DNA of 64,000 nt, from contig NZ_JANQNS010000015.1 in the NCBI RefSeq assembly GCF_028279465.1, forward strand, positions 310,001-374,000, in the 5' to 3' direction. The position numbers were made by a program, and so were the translations under genes. The notes beneath the pieces were generated by a model. That model was not told where the DNA came from, made no database searches, and saw only the letters and a list, made by a program, of their open reading frames with translations. The stretch is from Parasphingopyxis sp. (GTDB lineage Bacteria > Pseudomonadota > Alphaproteobacteria > Sphingomonadales > Sphingomonadaceae). Every line of letters starts with the position of its first letter. Position 1 is the first letter of the stretch. Below are positions 5,103 to 40,904 of the stretch, in pieces.

Positions 5103-6698
5103 GTGATTACCGGAACCGCAGAGGCGAGCAATCCGCTATCGGATTATGCGCGCGCCCGGGTCGCCGATGCATCGGGACAGATCGGAATCGCGGCTGAAGG
5201 CTATGCTTCGGCGCTGTCCGGCGCGCCGTTCGACGAGACACTCGCCGCCCGCGCCTATCGCCGCGCGGTGGCGGCGGGCGACCGGACCTTGGCGCTGCGC
5301 GCCGCGCAATCGCTGCGAACCGCCGATGCGCTGCCGCCGGACGGCGAATTTCTGTTCCTGATCGAAACGCTGGAGGAGGGTGATTGGGCCGAAGCACGCC
5401 GGATCGTCGACCGGATCGAGGAGCAGGGGCTTTTCTCCTCACTCGCTCCGGTGATGCGCGCCTGGATCGCATATGGGGCCGATGACGGCGATCCGATCGC
5501 GTTTCTCGATGGCGTGGGCGAGGATTCGATCGCCAGCATCTATGTGCGCGAACACAGAGCCCTGCTGCTGCTCGCCATGGGACGCTATGACGAAGGCATT
5601 ACGGCGACGCTGGCCTTGAACGATGTCGGCGCGCCGCGTTTTTTGCGGCTGCGCCTCGCCGCTGCGGCCCGGCTCGTACAGGCGCGCCGCCGGGATGAGG
5701 CGCTCGCTTTCCTGCCGGGGAATAGCCGGGCCGAACGCACCGCTCGCGCGACGATCGAGCGCCGGCGCTCGCTGCCCGGCGCCATCGACAGCGCGGCCGA
5801 CGGTATCGGCGAGATGTTCGTGCGCCTTGCTGCCGACATCAATCGCCAAAATGCGACGTCGCTTGCGCTGACGATCAGCCGTTTCGCGACATTCATCTCA
5901 CCCGACAACTCAGTGGGATGGTTCGTCACGAGCGGCATTCTCAATCAGGCCGATCAGGAACAGGCGGCGCTGCTGGCCCTAGATGGCGTCGGCAATCGCG
6001 ATCCATTCTACTCCGATGTGCAGGATATGCGCGTACAGCTGCTCGCCGATACGGACGAGCCGCAAGCCGCTTTGGAGCTGGCGCGCGAGCGGGCGGAACG
6101 GCGCAACGCCACGGCGGCGGACTGGCAGCGCTATGGCGAACGCTTTGCCGCGCTCGACCGCTATGAAGAAGCCGCCGAAGCCTATGGCCGGGCCGTTACC
6201 CTAGCTGGCGGCGACGAAGCGCCATGGAGCACATGGCTGCTCTATGGCGGCGCGCTGCTCGATGCCGATCGGTGGGACGAATCCCGGCCCGCGCTCGAAC
6301 GTGCGGTCGAATTGGCCCCGAACCAGCCGATCGCGCTCAACTATCTCGGCTATGCGTTGCTCGAACGGCGCGAAGATCTCGAAACGGCGGAGGACCTGAT
6401 CCGGCGTGCCAGCGAACTCAGCCCCGACAGCGCGTCGATCACGGACTCGCTGGGCTGGGTCTATTACATTCAGGGCGATCTGGAGCGCGCCATACCGACA
6501 CTCGAGCGCGCGGCGCGCGGTGAACCGGCAGAGCCGACGATCAACGAACATTTGGGCGACGCCTATTGGACCGCGGGCCGGCGACGGGATGCGCGTTTCG
6601 CCTGGCAGGCGGCCCTGGTGTCTGCGGAGGACGAGGCCGCGGACCGCATCCGGCAGAAGCTCGATATCGGCCTGACTGCCGAGACCGCCTCGCCCTGA
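5103..6698 (+). CDS. Tetratricopeptide repeat protein, probably exported
   Basis: About 531 residues made largely of helical TPR-like repeats, clearest between residues 370 and 500 (for example PNQPIALNYLGYALLERR and a following SITDSLGWVYY unit). It probably acts as a scaffold in the envelope. The nearest conventional start is GTG 5103, but the frame stays open upstream to 5010, and the residues just before the GTG (KRIAGRAALVLAPVLVI then TGTAEAS) look like a signal peptide. No ATG, GTG or TTG exists there. The true start may therefore be a rare codon (ATC 5046 or ATA 5052) behind the GGAGG at 5033, or the 5' end may be mutated. The stop overlaps the ispE start. Confidence 0.75.
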   Translation: MITGTAEASNPLSDYARARVADASGQIGIAAEGYASALSGAPFDETLAARAYRRAVAAGDRTLALRAAQSLRTADALPPDGEFLFLIETLEEGDWAEARRIVDRIEEQGLFSSLAPVMRAWIAYGADDGDPIAFLDGVGEDSIASIYVREHRALLLLAMGRYDEGITATLALNDVGAPRFLRLRLAAAARLVQARRRDEALAFLPGNSRAERTARATIERRRSLPGAIDSAADGIGEMFVRLAADINRQNATSLALTISRFATFISPDNSVGWFVTSGILNQADQEQAALLALDGVGNRDPFYSDVQDMRVQLLADTDEPQAALELARERAERRNATAADWQRYGERFAALDRYEEAAEAYGRAVTLAGGDEAPWSTWLLYGGALLDADRWDESRPALERAVELAPNQPIALNYLGYALLERREDLETAEDLIRRASELSPDSASITDSLGWVYYIQGDLERAIPTLERAARGEPAEPTINEHLGDAYWTAGRRRDARFAWQAALVSAEDEAADRIRQKLDIGLTAETASP

Positions 6699-20725: not shown

Positions 20726-21057
20726 CAAAGGTCCGCTTTATCTCGGCCGATGGCAATTCGGTCACCGAAGTAGAAGGCGCGCCGGGCGACCGGCTGCTCG
20801 ATCTTGCTCAGGCCGATGGCCAGCCGCTCGAAGGCACGTGCGAGGGTCAGATGGCCTGTTCGACCTGCCACGTGCATGTCGATCCGGAGGATTTCGCCCT
20901 GCTGCCGCGTGCCGAGGAGATGGAAGACGATATGCTCGATCTCGCCGCGGATGTGAACCGCTACAGCCGTCTCGCCTGCCAGATATGGCTGAGTGAGGAT
21001 ATGGACAGCCTGACGGTCCGCATCCCGGATGCCGTCCACAATATGCAGGGGAGATGA
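20722..21057 (+). CDS. [2Fe-2S] ferredoxin, Isc/adrenodoxin type
   Basis: A 111-residue ferredoxin with ligands Cys40, Cys46, Cys49 and Cys86 in the adrenodoxin-like pattern CEGQMACSTC and LACQI. It probably donates electrons during cluster assembly, in line with the two cysteine desulfurases just upstream. The stop overlaps the start of the beta-lactamase gene by four bases. Confidence 0.92.
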   Translation: MTKVRFISADGNSVTEVEGAPGDRLLDLAQADGQPLEGTCEGQMACSTCHVHVDPEDFALLPRAEEMEDDMLDLAADVNRYSRLACQIWLSEDMDSLTVRIPDAVHNMQGR

Positions 21058-21953
21058 GCGTGAAAAAGCGGGTTGCTGGTCTATGCGCAGCGATGCTGCT
21101 TTGGGCAGGCTGCGCTGCTGAGCCGCAGGGTGGATCGCCCATAGAAGCGATCATGAGCGAAGATGTGCTCGAAGGCATCGAGCAGCGGATCGGCGGGCGG
21201 CTCGGCGTGGCGCTGACCGACGAGAGCGGGAACCTGCTCCGCGCCTATCGTGGCGACGAGCGGTTCGCGATGTGCTCGACATTCAAGCTGGCATTGAGCG
21301 CGGCCGTGCTGGAGCGCGTCGAGGCGGGCGATATGGCGCTCGAGGATCCGCTGGCGTTCGGGGAAGCCGATTTGCTCGATTATGCGCCGGCAGCCGCAGC
21401 CTTTGTCGAAGCCGGCGAGATGGGTGTGAACGAGGCGGCAGAGGCGATCGTTACCCTGTCCGACAATACGGCGGCGAACCTGTTGCTCGCCGAAATCGGC
21501 GGTCCGGAAGGCATGACGGCCTTTTTCCGCCGCCATGGCGACGAAGTCTCGCGGCTCGACCGGATCGAGCCGGAGCTCAATGAGAATGCCGAAGGCGATG
21601 AGCGCGATACAACCAGTCCGGTGGCGATGGCCGGGCTGGTCCAGCGCCTGATATTCGGCGACATATTGACGGAAACGGGCCGGCAACAGCTGGCAGACTG
21701 GGCGATTGCGAACCAGACGGGCGATACGCGCATCCGCGCCGGCGTGCCCGATGGCTGGACGGTTGGCGACAAGACGGGCAGCTGCGGCAATGCGTTCAAT
21801 GATATCGGCATTATCTGGCCGCCCAGCGGCCCGGCTTTCGTGCTGACCGTCTATATCGATCGTCCGACCGCGGAACCGGGAGAAGTCGATTTCGCGATGG
21901 AGGAAATCGCCGAACTCGCCGTGCTCTATATGAGTGAGCGGAATATCGGCTGA
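21054..21953 (+). CDS. Class A beta-lactamase, predicted lipoprotein
   Basis: A 299-residue serine beta-lactamase. All class A motifs are present: Ser75-Thr-Phe-Lys78 (SxxK), Ser136-Asp-Asn138 (SDN), Glu172-xx-Leu-Asn176 (the omega-loop ExxLN) and Lys240-Thr-Gly (KTG). Cys74 just before the catalytic serine and Cys244 in KTGSCG correspond to the Ambler 69-238 pair, which forms a disulfide in KPC, NMC-A and SME type carbapenemases; the spectrum here is an inference only. The signal peptide ends LLWAGCAAE, a lipobox, so it is probably anchored to a membrane. Its ATG overlaps the ferredoxin stop, an unusual iron-sulfur operon context. Confidence 0.92.
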   Translation: MSVKKRVAGLCAAMLLWAGCAAEPQGGSPIEAIMSEDVLEGIEQRIGGRLGVALTDESGNLLRAYRGDERFAMCSTFKLALSAAVLERVEAGDMALEDPLAFGEADLLDYAPAAAAFVEAGEMGVNEAAEAIVTLSDNTAANLLLAEIGGPEGMTAFFRRHGDEVSRLDRIEPELNENAEGDERDTTSPVAMAGLVQRLIFGDILTETGRQQLADWAIANQTGDTRIRAGVPDGWTVGDKTGSCGNAFNDIGIIWPPSGPAFVLTVYIDRPTAEPGEVDFAMEEIAELAVLYMSERNIG

Positions 21954-21985: not shown

Positions 21986-22088
21986 CCGGTCGGAAGTCGG
22001 GCGGACGTGGCATTCGCCAACCCGGTCAGGTCCGGAAGGAAGCAGCCGTAACGATTTCGTCGCGGGTCGTTCCGGCTTCCACCTTTTT
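21986..22088 (+). ncRNA. ffs: Signal recognition particle RNA, small bacterial type
   Basis: The conserved apical domain GGTCAGGTCCGGAAGGAAGC starts at 22024, the hallmark of 4.5S-type SRP RNA, where the GGAA tetraloop and asymmetric bulge bind Ffh. Flanking sequences can pair: GGAAG at 21992 with CTTCC at 22076, and inner segments continue the stem. A T-run at 22084-22088 after the stem is the likely terminator. The outer ends are approximate. It lies between the beta-lactamase gene and dnaX. Confidence 0.93.
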
Positions 22089-28182: not shown

Positions 28183-28812
28183 ATGGACAGCAAAAGCGTT
28201 GAATTTGCGAGCCTTTTGGCCTCGCGCCTATGCCATGACCTGTTGAGCCCGATCGGCGCGCTCAATAACGGAATCGAGCTGCTCGCGGACGAGCATGACC
28301 CGGAAATGCGCGAACGCTGCATGGAATTGCTGGCCGAGAGCGCGAAAACTTCGGCCACCAAGCTCAAATTCTTCCGGCTGGCTTTTGGCGCGGCGGGCGG
28401 TTTCGACGACGAGATCGACAGTCGCGAGGCGAAGACGGCGATCGAGGGCCTGGTGGGCACACAGGGCCGGGTGGAACTGGAATGGCTGGTGGAACAGCCG
28501 AGCATGTCCAAAGCGAAGATCAAGATCCTGCTCAATCTTGCGCTGATCGCTGCCGACGCGCTGGTGCGCGGCGGGGCGCTGCTGGTCGGCGCCGAGGGCA
28601 GCGAGATCGTCGTGCGCGCGGAAGGGGACCGGATCGTGCTCGATCCTGAGCTTAAAACCGCGTTGCTCGGCAAGACCGATGCCGAGGCGCTGACGCCGCG
28701 TGCTGCGGCCGCCTGGCTCGTCCATATTCTCGTGCGCGAAGGCGGTGGTGAGGTGCAGGTCTCCGAACCGGAGGATAATGTGCTGCTTTTCGGCGTAACT
28801 TTCGCCGATTGA
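28183..28812 (+). CDS. chpT: Histidine phosphotransferase ChpT
   Basis: A 209-residue histidine phosphotransferase that relays phosphate from the hybrid kinase CckA to CtrA and CpdR in the alphaproteobacterial cell-cycle pathway. The phospho-accepting His18 sits in ASRLCHDLLSPIGALNNGIELL, matching the ChpT consensus. The C-terminal part has a degenerate ATPase-like fold with LTPRAAAAWLVHILVREGGG. It is the last chromosomal gene before the prophage and is intact, so the integration event did not damage it. Confidence 0.92.
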   Translation: MDSKSVEFASLLASRLCHDLLSPIGALNNGIELLADEHDPEMRERCMELLAESAKTSATKLKFFRLAFGAAGGFDDEIDSREAKTAIEGLVGTQGRVELEWLVEQPSMSKAKIKILLNLALIAADALVRGGALLVGAEGSEIVVRAEGDRIVLDPELKTALLGKTDAEALTPRAAAAWLVHILVREGGGEVQVSEPEDNVLLFGVTFAD

Positions 28813-28906: not shown

Positions 28907-29872
28907 TCACTTTTTGTTTTCCCATTTCAGGATAGCCGCTGTACCCATCTTTTCCTGGTCGATCTTCTTCGCGTAATGCTCGACCATCTTGTACGACTGA
29001 CCGCTGATGGCCGCTGTCTCGGCAACGGAGCACCCGGCTTCCAATAGTGCGATGACGGCGTTCTTTCTGAGGCCGTGCGGAACGATGTCAGCACCATGCC
29101 CCTTTGCCCATAGCTTGATGCGCCGCCGAAGCGCCTCGGGCTTGGCAGGATGACCCAAGAGCGTGATACCTTCCGGTCGGCCTAGTATCTCGACCAGCCC
29201 GCTGTGGAGCTGGATCACGAGCGGTGTGCCGGTCTTTTGCTGCACAACCTTAATACGGCCATGCTCAATGTCCCGCCATGTCATTCGACACACGTCGCCG
29301 ATGCGCTGCGCGGTGTAATATAACAGGCCGACGCTGCGCCGGATTAGCGGATCGGGGTCGACCAGCGCTTTCTCAACCAGCCATACGGGCCACGGATCGT
29401 GCTCGCCAAGCTCGTGCCGATCGATCCCGTCGCATGGATTGCGCTCGATCATATCGCGCTTCACCGCGACCGCGAACACGTTGCGCGTGACGGCCAGCAT
29501 CAAATTTGCTGCCCCGAGATTGCCCCTGTCTTCAAACGGGCGGATCATCTTGCGGACGTGCCGCCGCTCGACAAGTTTGACCGGGGCCTTGCCGTGCTCG
29601 GTTGCGAGTCGGTGTAGATAGAAGCCATATGTGCGCTGCGTTCCGGCCGACTTGCTGGGCAATACCGTGCGCTCGTACAGTGCGACAAGACTGGCGAGCG
29701 TTTCCATCTTGCGGTTGCGGTTCGAGCGCGCACCCATGCAGCGCGCATAGGCCTGCCCAAATTCCGGGTCGGCAATGTCAGGCAGGCGCACGAGCTTTTC
29801 GCCGCGAAAATAGTAGTACGTCTTGCCGCCCGCCCGGACGGGTTTCACATGCAACGGCAATTTCCTAGCCAA
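28907..29872 (-). CDS. int: Tyrosine-type phage integrase
   Basis: A 321-residue site-specific recombinase. The N-terminal arm- and core-binding regions are followed by the catalytic domain with Arg190 in TAQRIGDVCRMTW, His266-xx-Arg269 in PHGLRKNAV and the nucleophile Tyr300 in MVEHYAKK. The second catalytic histidine of the family is replaced by Gln292 (ISGQSYKM), a tolerated variation in some phage integrases. Located at the left prophage edge and transcribed toward the chromosome. Its start overlaps the excisionase-like gene by eight bases. Confidence 0.93.
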   Translation of the reverse strand: MARKLPLHVKPVRAGGKTYYYFRGEKLVRLPDIADPEFGQAYARCMGARSNRNRKMETLASLVALYERTVLPSKSAGTQRTYGFYLHRLATEHGKAPVKLVERRHVRKMIRPFEDRGNLGAANLMLAVTRNVFAVAVKRDMIERNPCDGIDRHELGEHDPWPVWLVEKALVDPDPLIRRSVGLLYYTAQRIGDVCRMTWRDIEHGRIKVVQQKTGTPLVIQLHSGLVEILGRPEGITLLGHPAKPEALRRRIKLWAKGHGADIVPHGLRKNAVIALLEAGCSVAETAAISGQSYKMVEHYAKKIDQEKMGTAAILKWENKK

Positions 29873-37587: not shown

Positions 37588-37769
37588 GCCGCCAGCTCCG
37601 CCATCTCGCGCCGCGCACGTTCGGCCGGTGTCTCGGCATCTTCACGCATACGCTCGGCAACATCGTCTGCGTTCAGGTCGTACCCATGGCAGTGCGTGCC
37701 AAGCCATTCGATCAGGTCGGCCAGCGCAAAATCGTCCAGCGCTGTTATCTGTGCTTTGAGGGAGGGCAT
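37584..37769 (-). CDS. Small acidic phage protein
   Basis: A 61-residue acidic helical protein (ALADLIEWLGTHCHGYDLNADD). Its start touches the stop of the first gene of the leftward operon by one base. No family recognised. Confidence 0.5.
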   Translation of the reverse strand: MPSLKAQITALDDFALADLIEWLGTHCHGYDLNADDVAERMREDAETPAERARREMAELAA

Positions 37770-38029
37770 TAGGCCGTGGCCTTGGGGAGCGCCTTGACGT
37801 CCATGGCGTCGGCGGTCATCATCTTGGCGGTTTCGCGGCCAGCGCTTGCAGCCTCATCGGCAACAATTTCAACAATGCGCCGCGAAAGATCAGCGGAAAG
37901 GTTTAACTTGACCTCTCCACGCTCGCCCTGAACTTCTATGGTGGCTTCAAACGGCGCGGAAGCTTTTACCTTTCTGTAGCTGCCGTAGTAGTCGCCTTGG
38001 CGCCGAACTGTCAGAGACTTGAGGATCAT
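37769..38029 (-). CDS. First gene of the leftward early operon, unknown function
   Basis: An 86-residue protein with a beta-rich first half (TVRRQGDYYGSYRKVKASAP) and an Arg/Glu/Ala helix second half. Start choice: AGGAG lies six bases before the second ATG of an ATGATG pair (38032/38029), while ATG 38044 has no ribosome site. It is the first gene after the candidate pL promoter at 38079-38107, so it should be made early in induction. Confidence 0.55.
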   Translation of the reverse strand: MILKSLTVRRQGDYYGSYRKVKASAPFEATIEVQGERGEVKLNLSADLSRRIVEIVADEAASAGRETAKMMTADAMDVKALPKATA

Positions 38030-38078
38030 CATTCGCTCCTGCATTATGCAAGAGCGGGGTGCCCTTGCTTACAGGGGC

Positions 38079-38107
38079 GTTGTAACAATTTGTTGCAATT
38101 GATGCAA
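38079..38107 (-). promoter_or_regulatory. Candidate leftward early promoter (pL)
   Basis: Read on the minus strand: a -35 element TTGCAT at 38107-38102, a 17-base spacer and a -10-like TACAAC at 38084-38079. The spacer contains the operator GCAACAAATTGTTAC. The candidate rightward promoter has the same TTGCAT-N5-GCAACA arrangement, so the two align well. Confidence 0.6.
38082..38096. promoter_or_regulatory. Operator OL1
   Basis: GTAACA-ATT-TGTTGC, one mismatch from the palindrome GCAACA-N3-TGTTGC found as a perfect copy in the rightward promoter. It lies between the -35 and -10 elements of the candidate pL, the ideal position for repression. Confidence 0.65.
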
Positions 38108-38116
38108 GGGAAAAAT

Positions 38117-38131
38117 GCAACTATTTGTTGC
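38117..38131. promoter_or_regulatory. Operator OL2
   Basis: GCAACT-ATT-TGTTGC, again one mismatch from the palindrome, upstream of the pL -35 element and 35 bases from OL1 centre to centre, close to an integral number of helical turns, which would allow cooperative binding. Confidence 0.6.
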
Positions 38132-38148
38132 AATCGAGTTGGGCTAGG

Positions 38149-38520
38149 TCATTCGCATGCCAGCGGCGGGCGCTCAAAGCCCGTCATAACCCACGTTTCC
38201 AGATTATCATCCCAACGACCGTACATTGTGTAGGCGCAGCGGTGATTAATAGGCTGTCCGCCGCTGATCTGCGTGTTCTGAGACCAGTAGACGCTATTGC
38301 CGATTGCGGTCGCGCTTCCGGTGTTGCTTTGGTAGGTCGGCGTGACATACGAGCGATCCATTACCCATTGAAAGGCGCGGGTGCCGTCCGGCATGTCGAA
38401 AGCGTTGGCTGGAGGCCCGTACCGCACCATCACTTGTTGTATAGGATCGCCGACGAAGCCGTCCATTATTGAGCTAGCACAGCCTGTTAGCGCCAAAAAA
38501 ACTGCTAGCGGCCTAATCAT
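38149..38520 (-). CDS. Prophage lipoprotein in the rex position
   Basis: A 123-residue predicted lipoprotein: MIRPLAVFLALTGCAS gives a short signal and lipobox (Cys14), followed by a mature part rich in aromatic and polar residues (QWVMDRSYVTPTYQ). Its ATG overlaps the last codons of the repressor gene (stop 38513), so it should be transcribed with the repressor in lysogens. This is the position of rexA/rexB in lambda and of lysogenic-conversion or superinfection-exclusion lipoproteins in other phages. The exclusion role is inferred only from context. Confidence 0.75.
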   Translation of the reverse strand: MIRPLAVFLALTGCASSIMDGFVGDPIQQVMVRYGPPANAFDMPDGTRAFQWVMDRSYVTPTYQSNTGSATAIGNSVYWSQNTQISGGQPINHRCAYTMYGRWDDNLETWVMTGFERPPLACE

Positions 38521-38830
38521 CGGTGCCGGTTTTGGTGATTGTTTTGGCAATTTCGGTTAACTGCCTTTTCTCGCGTAAGCTGGCGTGAGCCCATATATCA
38601 ATAATGTCTGCGTCCAAATCGGATGGGTCGTGTTCCAGCAGCATGCCTGGTGTCGTGTCAAGTGCGGGCGCAATCTTGCGAAGCCACTTTGCCGACAATT
38701 CCGTTCGCCCTCGCTCCAAATAGCCAACAACCTGGTGGCTCGTACCGATCCGTTCGCCCAACTCCGCCTGCGACAGCCCGCGATGTTCACGCCATGCGCG
38801 CAGGTAGTTAGGAGCGTCTGTTTCGGACAT
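38513..38830 (-). CDS. XRE-family phage repressor (CI-like)
   Basis: A 105-residue protein with an N-terminal helix-turn-helix of the Cro/CI type: YLRAWREHRGLSQAELGERI, then GTSHQVVGYLERGRTE and LRKIAPALDT. No S24 peptidase domain is present, so induction would not be by LexA-like self-cleavage; an antirepressor or another route is implied. Start ATG 38830. Between this gene and the divergent cro-like gene lie several GCAACA/TGTTGC sites, one of which sits right at its own start. Confidence 0.85.
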   Translation of the reverse strand: MSETDAPNYLRAWREHRGLSQAELGERIGTSHQVVGYLERGRTELSAKWLRKIAPALDTTPGMLLEHDPSDLDADIIDIWAHASLREKRQLTEIAKTITKTGTDD

Positions 38831-38924
38831 GGCAACATTTTGGCGCAATCCCGTATCCGTCGCGATAGGCGGGCTGTTGCAAAAAGTTCTTGCATTATAT
38901 GCAACAATATGTTGCAATACAGTC
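38831..38924. promoter_or_regulatory. Repressor-cro intergenic control region
   Basis: This divergent region holds the perfect operator 38901-38915, a half-site TGTTGC at 38875-38880 and a degenerate copy at 38832-38846 beside the repressor start. On the plus strand, TTGCAT (38890-38895), 17 bases, and TGCAAT (38913-38918) form a candidate pR. On the minus strand, TATAAT at about 38899-38894 is a good -10 for the repressor promoter, with a poor -35. Confidence 0.65.
38901..38915. promoter_or_regulatory. Operator OR, perfect palindrome
   Basis: GCAACA-ATA-TGTTGC, an exact inverted repeat with a 3-base centre, placed in the spacer of the candidate pR promoter. The same motif is present with one mismatch in each of OL1 and OL2, which makes it the likely target of the XRE repressor and of the Cro-like protein. 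Confidence 0.75.
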
Positions 38925-39122
38925 ATGGCGAAGATTCACGATGACATTGCGGCGGAAACGGGTGTGACTGCGGCATATGCGCGAATGCTAGACAATGGCA
39001 CGCGCACTCCCTCGCGCGATCTTGCGTACGAGATACACGAGAAGTTCGGCCTAAAGTTCGGCCATCTTGCCAATATGTCGGATAAAGACATTGCGACGCT
39101 CCGCAAGTTGGAGCGCGCATGA
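38925..39122 (+). CDS. Cro-like small DNA-binding protein
   Basis: A 65-residue protein divergent from the repressor, with an HTH pattern IAAETGVTAAYARMLDNGTRTP and ARDLAYEIHEKFG-like context. The Cro assignment follows from position and size. ATG 38925 has no ribosome site upstream and lies about six bases after the candidate -10 element, so the mRNA may be leaderless. The frame is open back to 38829 but would cross the operators. Confidence 0.7.
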   Translation: MAKIHDDIAAETGVTAAYARMLDNGTRTPSRDLAYEIHEKFGLKFGHLANMSDKDIATLRKLERA

Positions 39123-39124
39123 CC

Positions 39125-39448
39125 CTACGCCCTGCTATCGAACGCGACGACAGACGCTTGTTCAGCATTCCATTTTTCGATGGCGTCCTGGACCCTCGCG
39201 CTGGTCTGCATGGCATGGGGGATCGACATGGAGCGTATAACCCTCTGCGATCCGCTGTAGCTGGTGAGATAGACCATGCCGTTTCGGATTTCGGCTTCGG
39301 ACGGTTCCGTAAGCTCAACAATGGCCGTGGTTTCGGGAACGATAATTTGACCGCTTTTCGCGGTTTTGACGGCGATAATGATGACGCCAACCGCACAAAC
39401 GCACGCGGCAATGCAAATAACAAACCACATAATCGGATAATCGGACAT
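39125..39448 (-). CDS. Prophage single-pass membrane protein, reverse orientation
   Basis: A 107-residue protein with one N-terminal transmembrane helix (IMWFVICIAACVCAVGVIIIA with basic residues after it) and a soluble C-terminal part. Start ATG 39448 has GGGGAG five bases upstream. It is transcribed against the rightward early operon that surrounds it, tail to tail with cro, so it needs its own promoter and could be expressed in the lysogen. The overlapping 173-codon frame on the plus strand is taken as the shadow. Confidence 0.62.
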   Translation of the reverse strand: MSDYPIMWFVICIAACVCAVGVIIIAVKTAKSGQIIVPETTAIVELTEPSEAEIRNGMVYLTSYSGSQRVIRSMSIPHAMQTSARVQDAIEKWNAEQASVVAFDSRA

Positions 39449-39783: not shown

Positions 39784-40498
39784 CGCCCTTATCGCTTGTG
39801 AGTTTTCCGGCATTGTCTGTGCCGAGTTCCGTAGACGCGGGCACGAGGCCTGGTCGTGCGACGTGCTGCCGACCGAAGGCAATCCGGCGTGGCATATCCA
39901 GGGCGATGCAATTGAAGCCGCCTATTCGCGGCCATGGGATATTCTGATCGCGCATCCGCCCTGCACCTATCTGGCGAACAGCGGTGCGAAGCATCTGTAT
40001 GCGGGCATGAAGAAAGAGAACGGCCCGAATGCCGAACGCTGGGCAAATCTCGGGGCGGCTGCGCAGTTTTTCCTGACCCTCTGGAATGCGCCGATCCCGC
40101 GCAAGTGCATCGAAAACCCGATCATGCTGGGCCATGCCCGGCGACTGTTCGGTATTCCGAAACACAACCAGATCATTCAACCGTATGAGTACGGGCATGG
40201 GGAGACCAAGGCGACCTGTCTGTGGCTGCACAATCTGCCTGATCTTGAGCCGACAGACGAGGTTGCGGGCCGCGAACAGAAAGTGTTTCGCATGGCCCCG
40301 TCGCCTGATCGCTGGAAAGACCGCTCGCGCACCTTCCGGGGCATCGCGCAGGCCATGGCTGACCAGTGGGGCGCACTTATCACCGACACGCCTAACGGCG
40401 TTAGCGCGGCCAGCGCTCCCTCCGCCCGGTCGTGCGATGTTTCTTCTCCTTTCCATGAGGCAAACACTGGCACGAAAGGTCAACGGAATAATGGCTGA
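39776..40498 (+). CDS. DNA cytosine methyltransferase-like phage protein
   Basis: A 240-residue protein with an AdoMet-binding start (LIACEFSGIVCAEFRRRG), a motif ILIAHPPCTYLANSG in the place of the catalytic PC motif of C5 methyltransferases, and an ENP-like CIENPIMLGHARRL. The target-recognition part is short. It may methylate phage or host DNA, for example against restriction, or be an inactive relative. ATG 39776 is chosen because homologous sequence begins there. Confidence 0.65.
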   Translation: MGSALIACEFSGIVCAEFRRRGHEAWSCDVLPTEGNPAWHIQGDAIEAAYSRPWDILIAHPPCTYLANSGAKHLYAGMKKENGPNAERWANLGAAAQFFLTLWNAPIPRKCIENPIMLGHARRLFGIPKHNQIIQPYEYGHGETKATCLWLHNLPDLEPTDEVAGREQKVFRMAPSPDRWKDRSRTFRGIAQAMADQWGALITDTPNGVSAASAPSARSCDVSSPFHEANTGTKGQRNNG

Positions 40499-40904
40499 CG
40501 AAAACGCGATCATGCGCGATACGCTGCTGACGATCCGGCATGAGCTGGACAGGCGGCGCATTCCCTTAAAGGTGTGTGCGGCCAATGCAGAGGTGTCCTA
40601 TTCGACGTTTCTGTCGTGGTTCCCGGCCAACGGCACGCCGCAAATACCATCGCTGGCGTCTTTGCCTAGATTATCGCGCGCCCTGCCTGACGATCTGCTT
40701 TCGCTACTGGTTCCCGATGGCCTGTATATCGTGCCCGGCCCGGAAGGCGTTGACTATGACGATGTAGCAAGGGGCTGCCACGCCTTCCTGAAAGCCAAAA
40801 CTGACGCCCACCATCCCGATAGCCCGGACGGTCGCGAGATAAGCGACTGTGAGCGCGACACGCTTGATGCGCGGGTGATTCCGTTGCGGGGGAAGGTGGG
40901 GTGA
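40491..40904 (+). CDS. Phage hypothetical protein, possible HTH
   Basis: A 137-residue protein with a first half that could form a helix-turn-helix (RRRIPLKVCAANAEVSYSTFL) and a C-terminal part without recognised pattern. It overlaps the methyltransferase-like gene by eight bases and the next gene by GTGA. Possibly a regulator of the replication operon; unproven. Confidence 0.55.
   Translation: MADENAIMRDTLLTIRHELDRRRIPLKVCAANAEVSYSTFLSWFPANGTPQIPSLASLPRLSRALPDDLLSLLVPDGLYIVPGPEGVDYDDVARGCHAFLKAKTDAHHPDSPDGREISDCERDTLDARVIPLRGKVG

Follow-up and report, generated by a model that had tools for sequence, protein, structure and literature searches.

The window, the whole 64-kb stretch of DNA that was analysed, contains a probable immunity region that is part of a prophage within an 825-kb contig of a 3.3-Mb genome. 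The relevant genes and features, ordered along the window, are:

28907-29872, left of the immunity region: integrase
Left of the immunity region: exonuclease-type recombination genes and SSB
37769-38032, minus strand: first left-operon gene, 87 aa, no family above cut-offs
38034-38079, minus strand: pL leader hairpin, pairing the Shine-Dalgarno AGGA (38037-38040) of the first left gene
38034-38056, minus strand: competing 23-nt hairpin inside the pL leader, read from the sequence
38079-38084, minus strand: predicted pL -10 TACAAC, placed by spacing; predicted +1 near 38072
38082-38096: OL1, one mismatch, in the pL spacer
38102-38107, minus strand: pL -35 TTGCAT, followed after 5 bases by 38082-38096
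38117-38131: OL2, one mismatch, 35 bp from OL1; on the minus strand also terminator-like (stem plus TTTTT)
38149-38520, minus strand: cargo gene between repressor and pL, encoding a 123-aa lipoprotein-like protein (N-terminus MIRPLAVFLALTGCAS; phrog_3716, E 2.6e-8)
38516-38830, minus strand: XRE/HTH_3 repressor (Pfam), 105 aa; stop codon 38513-38515
38832-38846, minus strand: OR3, GCGCCA-AAA-TGTTGC, two mismatches; covers the pRM -10 and adjoins the repressor start codon
38837-38842, minus strand: pRM -10 CAAAAT, exactly 6 nt before the repressor ATG, with no recognisable -35
38866-38880: OR2, a half-site (TGTTGC at 38875-38880 perfect, other half 1/6), centred 43 bp before the repressor start codon
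38890-38895, plus strand: pR -35 TTGCAT, 5 nt before OR1, at a conserved place
38901-38915: OR1, GCAACA-ATA-TGTTGC, in the pR spacer, with the cro start codon 9 nt further on
38913-38918, plus strand: predicted weak pR -10 TGCAAT, placed by spacing; predicted RNA start at the cro ATG
38925-39122, plus strand: Cro-like repressor, 65 aa, recognition segment ...AYARM...; HTH_3 E 3.5e-4, below the curated cut-off
Right of the immunity region: genes for RusA-like, helicase-loader, primase/helicase, terminase, major head and endolysin proteins

Pfam matches of the repressor above the curated cut-offs were restricted to HTH domains and covered residues 9-69 of 105 (HTH_3, residues 10-61). No S24 self-cleavage domain was found at these cut-offs, in agreement with the initial interpretation of the region, made from the letters alone (the sequence-only reading). 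The repressor shared 37-66% identity with the 39 others in alignment A2, and the relatives used from the scans were 39-68% identical. A search of plasmids returned no relatives at E 1e-5, and a search of phage records returned 17, each below 60% identity and left out of the layout counts. A 107-aa ORF with a hydrophobic N-terminal segment (39125-39448, minus strand) is convergent with cro, ends 2 bp from it and is a possible further cargo gene.

The sequence-only reading had described a two-operator immunity region built on the palindrome GCAACA-N3-TGTTGC, perfect at 38901-38915 and with one mismatch each at 38082-38096 and 38117-38131. These positions proved exact and the lambda layout with the palindrome as operator was retained, but the sites number five rather than two: the half-site of OR2 (38875-38880) and OR3 (38832-38846), whose position is conserved in relatives, had been missed. 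In the window, the centre of OR2 lies exactly 35 bp from that of OR1. When up to two mismatches were allowed, the palindrome occurred eight times in the 64-kb window, against 2.74 expected (sd 1.59; none of 100 shuffles reached eight), and five of the eight matches fell within 38082-38915. One of these five, at 38879-38893, was not retained in relatives. A different perfect palindrome, TTGCAT-TAT-ATGCAA (38890-38904), which overlaps OR1 and the pR -35, was considered as a second operator and rejected, because relatives keep the TTGC of the -35 but not the remainder.

The palindrome is not unique in the genome. A whole-genome search, set beforehand as the refuting test, yielded two further perfect copies besides OR1, three in all and not many. 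With at most one mismatch, the motif occurred at 22 places genome-wide, compared with four for a reversed control pattern; outside the immunity region, no two of these places were less than 1 kb apart. The second perfect copy lies within a 253-aa ORF. The third (L002 1501-1515; G000:C6:4477-4491) is far from the prophage, about 100 bp before an ORF that looked TetR-like by eye, and is also spanned by a mechanically called 81-aa ORF. Taken alone, the window was suggestive of a switch and no more.

Relatives were collected as a first set of 41 loci, comprising the window, 37 of the 41 loci of a repressor scan, L005 and two stretches from further genomes. Removal of one duplicate phage left 40 loci, in 29 clusters at 80% repressor identity; the duplicate, L037x (from L066), covers the same region as L081 and is dropped in counts of 40 and kept in counts of 41. 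The layout counts leave out L107-L121, L006-L032 and L123-L127, among which L123 and L124 are strong repressor matches, and from one repressor scan take only the window, G175 and G284 loci. The weaker relatives L035, L103 and L104 were scored for the motif, showed no convincing shared one and were then left out of the counts, as was L105.

In the relatives, 6-3-6 palindromes were sought near the repressor start and copies of them downstream. Seven half-site types were found, all of the form xxxxCA: GCAACA (the window and L068), GTCACA, ATCACA, TTCACA (with TCCACA), TTCGCA, GTTACA and TTAGCA (with TTTGCA). Measured from the repressor start, OR1 was located at -85±1 in 38 of the 40 loci; in the set of 41, it began at -85 in 37 and one position away, at -84 or -86, in a further two. 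For L093 and L094, OR1 is given at -49 and -55, and the start codon chosen there is probably wrong. Across the 38 non-duplicate loci with OR1 at this place, the match to each locus's own half-site averaged 5.66 of 6 letters at both -85 and -50, compared with a background over all positions of 1.52 of 6 (sd 0.82), with weaker peaks at -16 and -24 and reverse peaks at -76, -7 and -41. At least one half with 5 of 6 letters was present at -16 or -24, the place of OR3, in 37 of these 38 loci. On the basis of these peaks, the right operator is read as three sites, of which OR2 is a half-site that keeps its cro-side half.

A left pair of sites 32-36 bp apart was found in 36 of 40 loci, including the window (searched at 30-38 bp spacing with at most three mismatches per site), so that a left early promoter with a second operator accompanies the right one in most of the first set. 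Two of the four loci without a left pair are on contigs that end 281 and 1060 bp downstream. Across dozens of related phages, the putative control sites thus occupy fixed positions while their letters change. In L079 (repressor 6001-6327 with the following 789 bp), inspection by eye showed a second XRE-like gene downstream of the repressor. The OR1, OL1 and OL2 of this locus each combine ATCACA and ATTTCA as a hybrid site; a heterodimeric repressor is possible there.

Promoter elements kept similarly constant places. At the pR -35 position, in cro orientation, TTG was present in 39 of 41 loci and TTGC in 37, and the cro start codon lay 9 nt past OR1 in 34 of 40 loci (8-11 nt in the others). 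An xATAAT-like pRM hexamer (A2 in 40 and T6 in 39 of 41 loci) was positioned exactly 6 nt before the repressor start, in or beside OR3. A minus-strand TATAAT at 38895-38900 was rejected as pRM since it is not kept in relatives, unlike the -35 TTGC. The sequence-only reading had given both early promoters the same hexamer, TTGCAT, followed after five bases by an operator. On both strands of the window this held; in relatives, the matching place on the left carries TTGAC in 29 of 36 loci, and the window's pL TTGCAT is a weaker version of it. In 25 of the 36, the pL -35 is located 11 nt ahead of OL1. When 37900-39200 was scanned with a simple sigma-70 consensus, both pL and pR were missed and one site elsewhere was returned, against 1.0 expected; the promoter calls are based on the relatives.

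A Shine-Dalgarno-like word preceded the repressor start in none of 40 loci and the cro start in six of 40, at a background of 9%. In a looser search, by comparison, 33 of 36 left leaders had a start codon with such a word at most 110 nt from OL1. Leaderless repressor and cro mRNAs are therefore predicted, as the simplest reading of the promoter spacing.

Between repressor and left operator lies a cargo slot. The distance from the repressor stop to OL2 ranged from 2 to 1300 bp in 36 loci; slots with room contain small ORFs, of which many appear by eye to begin with hydrophobic or lipoprotein-like segments. In at least 11 of the 36 loci, only about 20 bp or less separate the last stop codon from OL2, which leaves no room for a separate terminator. 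In the window, where this distance is 17 bp, no separate terminator fits between the cargo gene and OL2, and read-through of the repressor-cargo transcript into the left operon is therefore expected; in other loci, the slot has room for a terminator. A role of OL2 itself as a terminator was considered and discarded: the pattern is real in the window, but at least five T in the eight bases after OL2 occurred in only eight of 36 loci. Read-through transcripts would enter the left operon unless stopped by bound repressor or by the OL2 hairpin.

The 34 left leaders analysed after OL1 fold strongly (mean z -4.28; 32 of 34 below -2), with the Shine-Dalgarno in or beside the 3' arm of the hairpin. 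In this set, no start codon was found for L033 and L096, and those chosen for L076 and L085 are likely to be incorrect. When arms were swapped between loci, the mean pairing energy changed from -14.5 kcal/mol for native arms to -8.7 kcal/mol, and none of 10000 permutations was as good; the native partner ranked first in 17 of 34 leaders, while the native arms of L076, L077, L085 and L094 ranked 22nd or worse of 34. The two arms of the hairpin thus co-vary. Mean pairing with the Shine-Dalgarno arm reached 0.53 at base 4 of the leader and 0.83 at base 7. Because this pairing begins at base 4 and the predicted pL +1 is base 10 (with the -35 11 nt before OL1), the 5' arm would begin upstream of the pL start and pL RNA would lack part of it. 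Hidden by the complete hairpin, the Shine-Dalgarno of the first left gene would make read-through RNA translationally silent, whereas pL RNA could be translated. The median unpaired probability of the Shine-Dalgarno rose from 0.06 to 0.38 over the 34 loci when the RNA started at the predicted +1; it exceeded 0.5 at that start in only nine of them. In the window, it was near zero from every start tried, the predicted pL +1 included, because the second hairpin (38034-38056) hides the same bases. For the window itself, the shield model is unsupported.

The hairpin might instead serve mRNA stability, or an antitermination factor, in pL RNA rather than the silencing of read-through. This alternative is a serious competitor, although we lean slightly against it. 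Lambda-type leaders carry elements of this kind, and the Shine-Dalgarno of the window, paired from every start tried, speaks for it. Placement of part of the 5' arm outside the predicted pL RNA argues against it, as does the composition of the left operons, in which no family that could act as a shared protein site spans more than seven of 36 loci; the genes behind the left leaders are mostly not common to the loci. At Rfam gathering scores, no known RNA family matched the leader of the window, and the only match in the window was an SRP RNA at 21989-22086. Silencing of read-through, if it operates as predicted, would explain how a terminator-less repressor-cargo operon can lie directly upstream of a lytic left operon. 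Among the matches listed in the open-licence literature on such shields, a read-through/Shine-Dalgarno shield at a phage pL was not found described.

In the first-set loci, counted without regard to kinship, repressor residue 32 (alignment A2) was Gln in eight loci, each of which has A at operator base 1, and His in two, both of which have G; the window has His with G1. This residue aligns with residue 28 of the 434 repressor. Gln28 of the latter contacts the first A of its operator. Homology to the 434 HTH was obtained with a PDB profile (E 1.9e-4 with the family profile; 0.011 with L078 alone); together with the matching base-1 contact residue, it places the DNA-binding domain of the protein with the 434-type HTH repressors. 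The Cro residue that follows YAx was Met in 20 of 25 loci with A at operator base 4 (the hybrid L079 included) and Glu in 13 of 15 loci with G, again ignoring kinship, and across the 40 first-set loci Met and Glu were never crossed between A and G. The remaining Cro residues were Leu (both GTTACA loci), Gln (two), Lys, Ala and one unrelated Cro. L096 has an unlike repressor helix and a TTCGCA operator, yet its Cro carries Glu. In the first set, the recognition residues of repressor and Cro thus change together with the operator letters.

It is improbable, in our view, that the palindromes are read by Cro alone, or by a host protein, with the 105-aa repressor active at some other place or dependent on a partner. 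The second XRE-like gene and hybrid sites of L079 make a partner possible in some relatives; against this stand the tracking of operator base 1 by repressor residue 32 and the OR3 half, which 37 of 38 loci carry at the promoter of the repressor itself.

A later scan yielded 70 loci, of which 33 lay outside the first set and served as a held-out set. A palindrome with at most one mismatch was present at exactly -85 in 23 of these 33 loci and absent from that position in ten, at a chance of about 0.5% per position; it was found in 13 of 21 loci labelled, by hand, as having distinct N-termini. At -83 to -86, the count was 29 of 33. In all 23 loci with the -85 palindrome, five or more of the six letters of the OR2 half matched; this score uses the -85 frame and is meaningful only where a site is located there. 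TTGC was found at the expected pR -35 place in 23 of 33 loci. The pRM hexamer (A2 and T6) was found in only 18, with ten of the 15 failures belonging to one near-identical group. A clean left pair (three mismatches or fewer in total) was detected in only six of 33 loci, although several of the 33 are on contigs that end within 1.5 kb; in many of the more distant phages the left operator is therefore different, farther away or missing. That the three palindromes are chance matches or generic inverted repeats such as transcription hairpins is hardly credible and already largely refuted: the genome-wide excess over the reversed control and the terminator-like score of OL2 would fit this explanation, but the constancy of position despite altered letters, seen in 40 loci and in the held-out set, does not.

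Considered as a whole, the region is very probably the immunity region of an integrated temperate phage, with a five-site, lambda-like repressor/Cro switch and a proposed leader shield. A repressor dimer at OR1 would shut off pR and with it cro, and dimers at OL1 and OL2 would shut off pL. From OR2, the repressor probably activates its own promoter pRM, as the centre of OR2 at -43 from the pRM start is near the place of OR2 in lambda, about -42. At high repressor levels, OR3, which covers the pRM -10, would be filled and the repressor would shut off its own synthesis. Cro would read the same sites to the reverse effect.

Lambdoid immunity regions are characterised by divergent repressor and Cro genes, a three-site right operator, a left operator at pL and an autoregulated pRM. 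The region resembles those of lambda, 434 and P22 in having a multi-site right operator shared between divergent repressor and cro genes, a left operator at pL, a candidate autoregulated pRM with a weak or absent -35 and a third right site over it, cargo genes behind the repressor and a 434-like HTH. The proposal that repressor, Cro-like gene and early operons are arranged around the sites as in lambda was thereby borne out at the level of sequence. The region differs from those of these phages in its repressor of about 105 aa without a cleavage domain, in the spacing of about 35 bp between operators, which are 23-24 bp apart in lambda, in the half-site character of OR2, in a cro that is also predicted to be leaderless, and in a pL leader that hides a Shine-Dalgarno. 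Of the features of lambdoid systems, S24 self-cleavage and SOS induction found no counterpart, with HTH domains alone in the repressor and no exact LexA box in the window. By its layout the region works like that of lambda, yet the missing cleavage domain keeps it from being classed among lambdoid CI regions.

Hairpins that hide a ribosome site in read-through RNA are known from IS10/Tn10 and T4 gene e, where the RNA of an inner promoter starts inside the 5' arm. The leader hairpin proposed here would act in the same way; unlike in those systems, it would guard the lytic operon of a temperate phage against the phage's own lysogenic transcript.

Among the 1772 phage records matched, the Pseudanabaena phage Pam1 (ON014753) had the most similar terminase (69% identity). 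Pam1 has an annotated CI-Cro-CII and shows the same operator frame, with an OL pair 34 bp apart (28537-28585), a TTGCAA-5 nt-palindrome arrangement before cro (29565-29579), a Cro with YASE and a Shine-Dalgarno-hiding leader stem (by eye); its OR1 has two mismatches between the arms and lies 10 nt before the cro ATG. It differs in its XRE repressor, which has no relatives in viral_contigs, and in its operators, TTCGTA/TTCGCA. The annotated features of the Pam1 record (L128) do not include this operator frame. In the Pam1 paper, gp47/gp48 are likened to CI/Cro of lambda, and the word 'operator' is absent from the main text. Among the matches listed in the open-licence literature on phage repressors and operators, the layout of the present switch was not described.

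A single-sequence guess thereby becomes a family in which the operator letters and the residues of repressor and Cro vary together on a constant frame. Immunity specificity, that is, which prophages exclude which, could become predictable from sequence, and the family offers tests of the 434-type code. A more general reading is offered tentatively: that the region is a compact cassette, carried by many phages with largely dissimilar left-operon genes, with lambda logic on a fixed ruler, operator letters and both repressors' recognition residues swapped together, and a leader that guards the left operon. If true, it would provide a recognition code, occurring in nature, that comprises at least seven types of operator, together with a translation filter for promoter of origin.

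A short repressor without a cleavage domain raises the question of the induction route, which can be addressed at defined sites. No exact LexA box (GTTC-N7-GTTC) was found in the 64-kb window, which rules out LexA-controlled induction through such a box within it. An antirepressor shared among left operons also lacked support: in the first 2.5 kb, the largest shared ORF family was present in seven of 36 loci. A 140-aa ORF of the right operon (40482-40904), at the place expected for CII, had no PHROG match and no similarity to the CII of Pam1, and was rejected as a CII candidate. DNA-damage-independent inactivation by small proteins has been described for phage repressors and is one way to relieve repressors of this type (PMC10432266).

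The repressor of the window ends in ...TGTDD (38516-38530). The Gly-Thr of this tail was nearly invariant (at least 90%, alignment A2) whatever the operator type, and the tail could for that reason be a handle for whatever inactivates the repressor. Outside the prophage, a chromosomal ORF at 21054-21953 resembles a class A beta-lactamase, with STFK, SDN and KTG motifs seen by eye.
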